Both the position numbers and the translations under genes were made by a program. The notes below the pieces were generated by a model. The model had not been told where the DNA came from, ran no database searches, and worked only from the letters and a program-made list of their open reading frames with translations. 64,000 nucleotides of DNA. Source: an uncultured Lachnospiraceae bacterium (GTDB lineage: Bacteria > Bacillota > Clostridia > Lachnospirales > Lachnospiraceae). The stretch is from assembly GCA_946632055.1 (NCBI GenBank), contig CAMPAR010000001.1:43730-107729 (forward strand), read 5' to 3'. Of the stretch, positions 1,668-55,246 are shown piece after piece (position 1 is the stretch's first letter; each line of letters starts with the position of its first letter).

Positions 1668-1683
1668 GACGATATCAGGGTTA

Positions 1684-1846
1684 AAAGCCTTCTCACACGG
1701 CAAGCTTGCTTGCCGGTGGGAGAAAGGCTTTGTGACCCGCCCCACATGGAGCACGAAGTGGAAATTTGTTTCCACGGGAGTGCGGAATGTGGGGAGGAGC
1801 GTGGGAGCACGAAGTGCGAAACGCTCCGGAAATCAGCTGTTGAGAC
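1684..1846 (+). ncRNA. Highly structured 5' leader / candidate cis-regulatory RNA, family unassigned
   Basis: Consecutive hairpins: AAAGCCTTCTC..CGGCAAGC-tt-GCTTGCCG..GAGAAAGGCTTT; CCCCACAT-gga-GCAC-gaa-GTGGAAA-tttg-TTTCCAC-ggga-GTGC-gga-ATGTGGGG; GGAGCGT-ggga-GCAC-gaa-GTGC-gaa-ACGCTCC. Confidence 0.65.
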
Positions 1847-12740: not shown

Positions 12741-12818
12741 GAGCCGAGGGGTATGGGTATCCTCACAAGGCGTATGTGAAACCGCGCCGCAGGAGGATAC
12801 CCATCTCGCAGGCGAGTT
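12741..12818 (+). repeat. Copy A of a three-copy structured 3'-UTR element
   Basis: GAGCCGAGGG; stem ATGGGTATCCTC(12753-12764)/GAGGATACCCAT(12793-12804); inner GGCG-tat-GT-GAA-AC-cg-CGCC; then CTCGCAGGCGAGTT. Confidence 0.8.
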
Positions 12819-12830
12819 TCGCGATACACA

Positions 12831-12866
12831 GAGGAGGCCCCGGGCAGTAATGCCCGGGGCCTCCTC
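12831..12866. terminator. Bidirectional terminator-type hairpin between TetR gene and PAP gene
   Basis: GAGGAGGCCCCGGGCA gtaa TGCCCGGGGCCTCCTC, 16-bp perfect stem. Confidence 0.8.
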
Positions 12867-12892
12867 TGTTCATTATATATACAAAATTTCAG

Positions 12893-15600: not shown

Positions 15601-15709
15601 GACAGAGTAGGAATGCATGTGTGAAATAGTGCCGGAAAGACGGGGAGTTGCTTTCCGGACGAAACGGTCATAAGGATGACCTGCAGTATGTGTTCCGCAT
15701 CCCGCTGTC
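15601..15709 (+). ncRNA. Tetrahydrofolate (THF) riboswitch aptamer
   Basis: GACAG-AGTAG...GCATCCCG-CTGTC outer stem; CCGGAAAG-acGGGGAGTTG-CTTTCCGG; GACGAA; GGTCAT-aagg-ATGACC; located directly upstream of folT. Confidence 0.87.
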
Positions 15710-35245: not shown

Positions 35246-35324
35246 AACTCGCCTGCGAGATCAGCCTCCCTCTTCGGCGTGACTTCGTATCCGCCTCATG
35301 AGGGAGGTTGATTACCCTCGGCTC
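35246..35324 (-). repeat. Copy B of the three-copy structured 3'-UTR element
   Basis: Reverse strand GAGCCGAGGG; ATCAACCTCCCTC/GAGGGAGGCTGAT (one mismatch); GGCG-gat-AC-GAA-GT-ca-CGCC; CTCGCAGGCGAGTT. Confidence 0.82.
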
Positions 35325-35367
35325 GGAATCTCTATGCTTTAAGGAGGTCTTTGGGCAGGACGGCTCT

Positions 35368-55167: not shown

Positions 55168-55246
55168 GAGCCGAGGGTCATCCTGCTTCCTCATGAGGCG
55201 GATACGAAGTCACGCCGAAGAGGAAGCAGGATCACGCAGGCGAGTT
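55168..55246 (+). repeat. Copy C of the three-copy structured element (between pyrF and pyrE)
   Basis: GAGCCGAGGG; ATCCTGCTTCCTC(55180-55192)/GAGGAAGCAGGAT(55220-55232) 13-bp perfect stem; GGCG-gat-AC-GAA-GT-ca-CGCC; CACGCAGGCGAGTT. Confidence 0.83.

Follow-up and report, generated by a model that had tools for sequence, protein, structure and literature searches.

The window, that is, the whole stretch of 64,000 nucleotides analysed here, derives from an uncultured Lachnospiraceae bacterium (source genome G000, 2.28 Mb, ~90% complete) and holds three copies of a structured element, of which copy C lies in the gap between pyrF and pyrE (Table 1). Re-reading of the window sequence bore out the positions and stems given for these copies in an earlier note, and added that copy B, whose strand the note had left unstated, is encoded on the minus strand. 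The element is ~78 bp long and has fixed, unpaired ends (CGAGCCGAGGGT ... CNCGCAGGCGAGTT) on either side of a stem of 12-14 bp whose shape is constrained but whose sequence hardly is. Inside the stem follow an internal loop, in which several subtypes have GA facing GA, and then a short inner helix (e.g. GGCGT/ACGCC) that carries a conserved loop of ~10 nt. On the element strand, the 5' side reads YCGAGCC-GAGGGTN before the stem, which starts with AT/AT in regular copies, and the 3' side reads CNCGCA-GGCGAGTT. The GCC and GGC of the two ends could pair with each other, and the right motif CTCGCAGGCGAG is a near-palindrome by itself. Variation is greatest in the stem and almost absent from ends and loop, while the GGCG/CGCC helix varies among copies with compensation. 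Loop subtypes are GTGRAAC, ACGRAGT, and TTGGRACC; what had been described as an invariant GAA is GAA, GGA, or GGG, depending on the copy.

Table 1 Element copies and associated features; positions are those of the window unless a locus or contig is named
Feature	Position	Strand	Remark
Clostridiales-1 RNA (RF01699)	1670-1835	+	115.6 bits
Copy A (subtype A)	12741-12818	+	covariance model 105.5 bits
Copy A, left end	12741-12752
Copy A, stem arms	12753-12764 and 12793-12804		12 bp
Copy A, right end	12805-12818
GC-rich terminator-like hairpin after copy A	12830-12869		associated, outside the core
THF riboswitch (RF01831)	15601-15709	+	76.5 bits
Copy B	35246-35324	-	covariance model 84.2 bits
Copy B, right end	35246-35259
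Copy B, stem arms	35260-35272 and 35300-35312		13 bp, one A.C mismatch
Copy B, left end	35313-35324
Extra left half-site GAGCC	35362-35366	-	42 bp upstream of copy B left end
Copy C, pyrF-pyrE gap	55168-55246	+	covariance model 82.8 bits
Copy C, left end	55168-55179
Copy C, stem arms	55180-55192 and 55220-55232		13 bp
Copy C, right end	55233-55246
UG26-type reverse transcriptase	L243:1177-2451 (G000:C25)
UG26-type reverse transcriptase	L242:1114-2331 (G002:C17)
UG26-type reverse transcriptase	G005:C218:4857-5474
Y1 gene	L093:1150-2250 (G000:C2)		REP-type transposase
Y1 gene	L094:1020-2190 (G000:C13)		REP-type transposase
Y1 gene	L091:1270-2310 (G010)		REP-type transposase

A covariance model trained on eight copies identified the element at 22 places in G000, the weakest of which (C116, 45 bits) is visibly decayed, and the end-to-end pattern GAGCCGAGGGN{40,60}CGCAGGCGAGTT gave 16 exact matches across the 2.28 Mb (reversed control, 0). 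The supposed three-copy family, for which the earlier note had proposed a genome-wide model search for further covarying homologs, is therefore considerably larger. The note's failure to recognise a riboswitch or ribozyme family agrees with our comparison to Rfam 15, in which no family matched at gathering score and a relaxed search returned only chance-type matches; literature searched for a described Lachnospiraceae repeat held nothing relevant. The note's preference for selection over recent sequence copying is not supported, since near-identical cores at unrelated loci, head-to-tail pairs, a truncated copy, iterated ends, and the lack of the element at the window-A site of the related genome G002 indicate a dispersed repeat.

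The iteration concerns both ends. Some loci carry upstream repeats of the left end with ~38 bp attached, in units of 43-45 bp, and some carry downstream repeats of the right end with ~10 bp attached, in units of 19-23 bp. Counted over all copies, 9 loci have a left half-site between -40 and -46, against 0.4 expected, and 8 have a right half-site between +18 and +23, against 0.1 expected; many copies have no extra half-sites. Whole copies stand head to tail 103-107 bp apart (~104 bp), C37 holds an extra copy without its 3' part, and half-site and tandem spacings approximate whole helical turns. A left end in G002 that mirrors its right end could be read as a template switch, a reading that we rejected because loss of the DNA between two left half-sites accounts for it almost equally well. 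Right-end motifs (CGCAGGCGAGTT) also occur alone, without hairpin, at G000:C16:18788, C21:12015, C26:11912, C73:9785, and C106:1361, some of which immediately follow a stop codon or neighbour a terminator-like hairpin. Three further loci were noted: L050 near 1830-1960 (G000:C39) has a palindrome of the Y1-linked type (GACAGGGGGACGGTTCTT..AAGAACCGTCCCCCTGTC) among element-like half-sites, L074:1440-1660 (G000:C116) has a decayed copy adjoining another such palindrome (GGGGACAGGTTCC..TAATTTAGTC), and L081:1380-1490 (G005:C154) has, 103 bp before a regular copy, an element-like one in which the stem AATAAGGCAGCCCTTC..GAAGGGGCTGCCTTATTTT resembles an intrinsic terminator.

The compensatory stem changes first seen in three copies extend to the larger family, in which covariation is very strong. 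In the alignment of 33 copies, standard pairs fill 91.2% of pair cells, two-sided changes number 146 cells vs 42 in shuffles, and the covariation score is 0.646 (shuffled, 0.214; slid, ~0.1), figures that are favoured by an alignment fitted to the model's structure and lowered because three outer model pairs are set one column off, one of them unpaired; a gapless subset agrees by eye. Copies B and C differ in four stem pairs and in 0 of 27 loop bases, and among close copies stem changes are two-sided, with one-sided states almost absent. The regions around C15 and C40 are 83% alike over 236 bp, their cores are 99% alike with one base different, and their stems are identical, so that after dispersal the core was either under constraint or made uniform by conversion. 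The idea that stems are rewritten at each move was dropped, as these two stems are identical despite much-diverged surroundings.

In a double-stranded palindrome, or under template-switch repair, G.T and A.C mismatches are expected to be equally frequent. On the element's own strand, however, stem mismatches are 18 G.T and 2 A.C (p = 0.0004), small counts with partly shared descent among the changes, obtained from an arm-to-arm alignment with equal price for every mismatch, from which three A.C at a position bordering the stem were omitted and in which a duplicated copy entered only once. Without possibly shared mismatches the ratio is 15:2 (p = 0.002), and under an assumed 2:1 mutational strand bias the 18:2 ratio has p = 0.02. 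Folding of one single strand therefore appears to matter. Copies antisense to both neighbours show the same bias (6:0), and thus the favoured strand follows the element and the neighbour's mRNA is not the selected molecule in these copies. The strand-biased wobbles favour single-strand folding, without telling RNA from single-stranded DNA.

Copies are intergenic wherever their neighbours could be called with a simple codon-usage gene caller, except for one G005 copy that overlaps a predicted ORF, and they adjoin gene 3' ends; about one-third are antisense to both neighbours. The 25 independent loci include no divergent gap and ten convergent gaps; in the window, two convergent gaps were called, and each holds the element. 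Measured against a background of only 27 gaps, the enrichment in convergent gaps is suggestive (p = 0.008). The neighbours are unrelated housekeeping genes, among them pyrF/pyrE, a RadA-like gene, PPK2, an MnmA-type gene, ribosomal protein L10, a ClpC-type gene, and HypA; they have no common theme, and those scanned include no adjacent transposase. Most subtype-A copies have a stop codon on one side and, on the other, a strong terminator-like hairpin, the spacing of which, as after copy A, recurs after other copies of this subtype. In several other convergent gaps with the element, a scan for intrinsic terminators found none. Regular copies have CNCGCAGGCGAGTT directly after the stem and no T-run, and copy C likewise has neither a terminator-like site nor a T-run after its stem.

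Forty relatives were searched, and copies were present only in G002 and G005, which belong to the same genus as the source and were deposited as uncultured Lachnospiraceae bacterium and uncultured Clostridiales bacterium (RUG series). These two closest relatives among the genomes searched have 4 and 8 covariance-model matches. Their PyrE identities to the source are 92 and 87%, compared to at most 82% for other relatives; the carriers are thus, among the genomes searched, the closest relatives by PyrE as well, and the distribution of the family follows that of a clade. Of 397 genomes drawn evenly from the Lachnospiraceae, a draw that did not include G005 and to which stricter filters applied, only G000 and G002 were positive; 395 further Lachnospiraceae genomes and the other genus members searched yielded no copies. 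A pattern scan of genome contigs gave 95 stretches, with strong scores among the loci fetched only from G002 and G005. A wider taxonomic spread was rejected, as the best other match, on an Akkermansiaceae contig, reached a far weaker 26 bits, and both it and the remainder, mostly from GC-rich genomes, look chance-like; an origin from phages, plasmids, or viral contigs was likewise rejected, with no copies found there by sequence search. Individual sites differ in state between the carriers. The pyrF-pyrE gap holds a decayed inverted copy in G005 and only a right-end-like remnant in G002, and at the window-A site of G002 the genes abut without the element. G000 and G005 have one site in common, at which their loop subtypes differ; another is common to G002 and G005, whose stems there are the same.

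No mobilising enzyme was found. Long Y1 (RAYT) genes are flanked by other palindromes (GGGGACAGGTTC or GGGGACGGTTC), the covariance model found no element copy at them, and G005 has element copies and no Y1 match (84% completeness); a REPIN/RAYT partnership was rejected as the RAYT genes of the genome carry other palindromes. The Y1 genes in Table 1 have palindromic repeats of their own (GGGGACAGGTTCC.., GGGGACGGTTCTTTTGTCTCG, or arrays of GGGGACGGTTCTC..). The integron integrase TIGR02249 had no match above the curated cut-off in six genomes and none whatever in G000 (~90% complete), and an integron was discarded on this ground. All three carriers encode a UG26-type reverse transcriptase (PADLOC RT_UG26, E ~1e-160). 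The gene is also present in G012 (G012:C15, 59% identity), a genome in which no element copy was found, and searches of G004 and G008 did not find it; none of the loci has a copy of the element alongside. Its co-occurrence with the element is confounded by the relatedness of the carriers by descent.

Our preferred reading, at a probability of roughly 0.55, is that the element is a non-autonomous, interspersed structured repeat (REP/BOX-like) of one Lachnospiraceae clade, whose ends and loop are read on the folded strand. Its dispersal, its pairs and iterated ends, the empty window-A site in G002, and the differing states of the pyrF-pyrE gap speak for a repeat. Covariation, the excess of G.T over A.C on the element strand, the lack of divergent gaps among the loci, and the near-identical cores of C15 and C40 within diverged regions also support this reading. 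Against it count the RAYT genes, which have other palindromes and no element copies, the copies of G005 without a Y1 match, and the lack of a definable target-site duplication; some sites are common to species and the carriers form a single clade, which gives no evidence of recent movement. Under the interspersed-repeat reading, a putative protein would recognise ends and loop on one folded strand, either single-stranded DNA during copying or RNA, and would thereby spread or maintain the element. Sense-direction copies would place the hairpin in the 3' untranslated region, where it could slow 3'-to-5' decay or read-through, an effect that would be a by-product, maybe useful between convergent genes without a terminator of their own. 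Both the reading of ends and loop by an enzyme and the modulation of mRNA 3' ends by sense copies are steps that we infer. An improbable extension is a new class of mobile hairpin that surrounds itself at gene ends with ladders of half-sites at near-helical spacing, and whose ends and loop a non-Y1 enzyme reads from a single folded strand; the UG26-type reverse transcriptase is one conceivable candidate for it.

The gene-3'-end position, the convergent enrichment, and the convergent gaps without a detected intrinsic terminator, together with strongly conserved cores and the preference for G.U-type wobbles, could instead reflect a cis-acting RNA kept by the host, i.e., a hairpin in 3' UTRs or between genes that is bound by a host RNA-binding protein and stabilises mRNA or acts as a transcription barrier. 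We hold this to be possible, though clearly the less probable reading, because the wobble bias stays on the element strand in the approximately one-third of copies antisense to both neighbours, the element is confined to a single clade although its neighbouring genes are widespread, and such an RNA has no need for iterated ends. The riboswitches, leaders, and intrinsic terminators to which a structured, intergenic element with a copy in the pyrF-pyrE gap might also be assigned were rejected as very improbable: besides the lack of an Rfam match and of a neighbour theme, downstream genes are mostly antisense and the stem of copy C has no T-run.

Perfect hairpins with multi-base compensatory changes are known to arise and persist through template switching (PMC8794818), and the element could be a functionless mutational by-product, its palindrome perfected by quasipalindrome correction and its repeats produced by slippage at stalled forks. 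The near absence of one-sided states among close copies and the tandem repeats on both sides of the hairpin fit this. It is nevertheless unlikely, since it leaves the fixed unpaired ends and loop, the dispersal, the constant spacing across loci, the gene-end location, and the strand asymmetry of mismatches unexplained; template switching may help to keep the stems perfect whatever the main reading. Less probable still is a recombination or DNA-binding site, either attC-like or nucleoid-organising, at which a dimeric protein would occupy near-helical arrays of half-sites and the hairpin would belong to the complex. Half-sites at ~43 and ~20 bp, the near-palindromic right motif, and its solitary occurrences are as expected for such a site, whereas the lack of an integron integrase above the cut-off, the many copies without extra half-sites, and mismatches biased to one strand, unexpected for double-stranded DNA, are not.

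Interspersed structured repeats of uncultured Lachnospiraceae are little catalogued, and this one separates its sequence-constrained parts (ends and loop) from its shape-constrained stem unusually cleanly. The family is a test case for hairpin upkeep by single-strand folding vs template switching, and its copies are natural variants for gauging effects on mRNA 3' ends.

Among described systems, integron attC sites are folded single strands recognised by shape, with poorly conserved stem sequence and strand selection (PMC2727003). The element shares the poorly conserved stem and the strand bias, but its right end carries GAGTT and its left end is YCGAGCC without an AAC-type box, in place of the attC boxes GTTRRRY and RYYYAAC, and no cassettes were seen beside it. 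Compared to MITEs, pairing between its ends is limited to GCC/GGC, though it extends further in some copies, and a target-site duplication was not definable, with no clean empty site with matching flanks among the sites compared. SPRITE and terminator-like repeats are hairpin repeats enriched near gene 3' ends (PMC3049150); the element is likewise a hairpin near gene 3' ends, but no U-rich tract follows it. REP/REPIN sequences tagged GTAG or CGTC are hairpins scattered through intergenic DNA that combine an unpaired, conserved tag with variable stems and form dimers, and CGTC REPs have no dedicated transposase and stems that start with AT (PMC3733652, PMC3116915). The element resembles them in its intergenic dispersal (22 copies with a common hairpin structure), its conserved unpaired sequence, its variable stem starting with AT, and its pairs. 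It differs in being larger (~78 bp, two helices) and conserved on both sides, in having direct rather than head-to-head pairs, in its stem foot, which in regular copies reads GGGTA/GGGTT-AT and TGCGAG-AT (or TGCGTG-AT) on the other strand instead of a REP tag, and in its absence from the flanks of the Y1 (RAYT) genes of its genome. The BOX element of pneumococcus is a modular small repeat with iterated ~45 bp modules and strong secondary structure, restricted to close relatives and arranged as boxA-(boxB)n-boxC with the middle module iterated (PMC3049150). Without claiming any sequence relation, we note that our element is likewise modular, strongly structured, and confined to close relatives, but iterates its two ends, outside the hairpin. 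It is an undescribed family of an already known kind, with unusual iterated ends, and not a gene switch.
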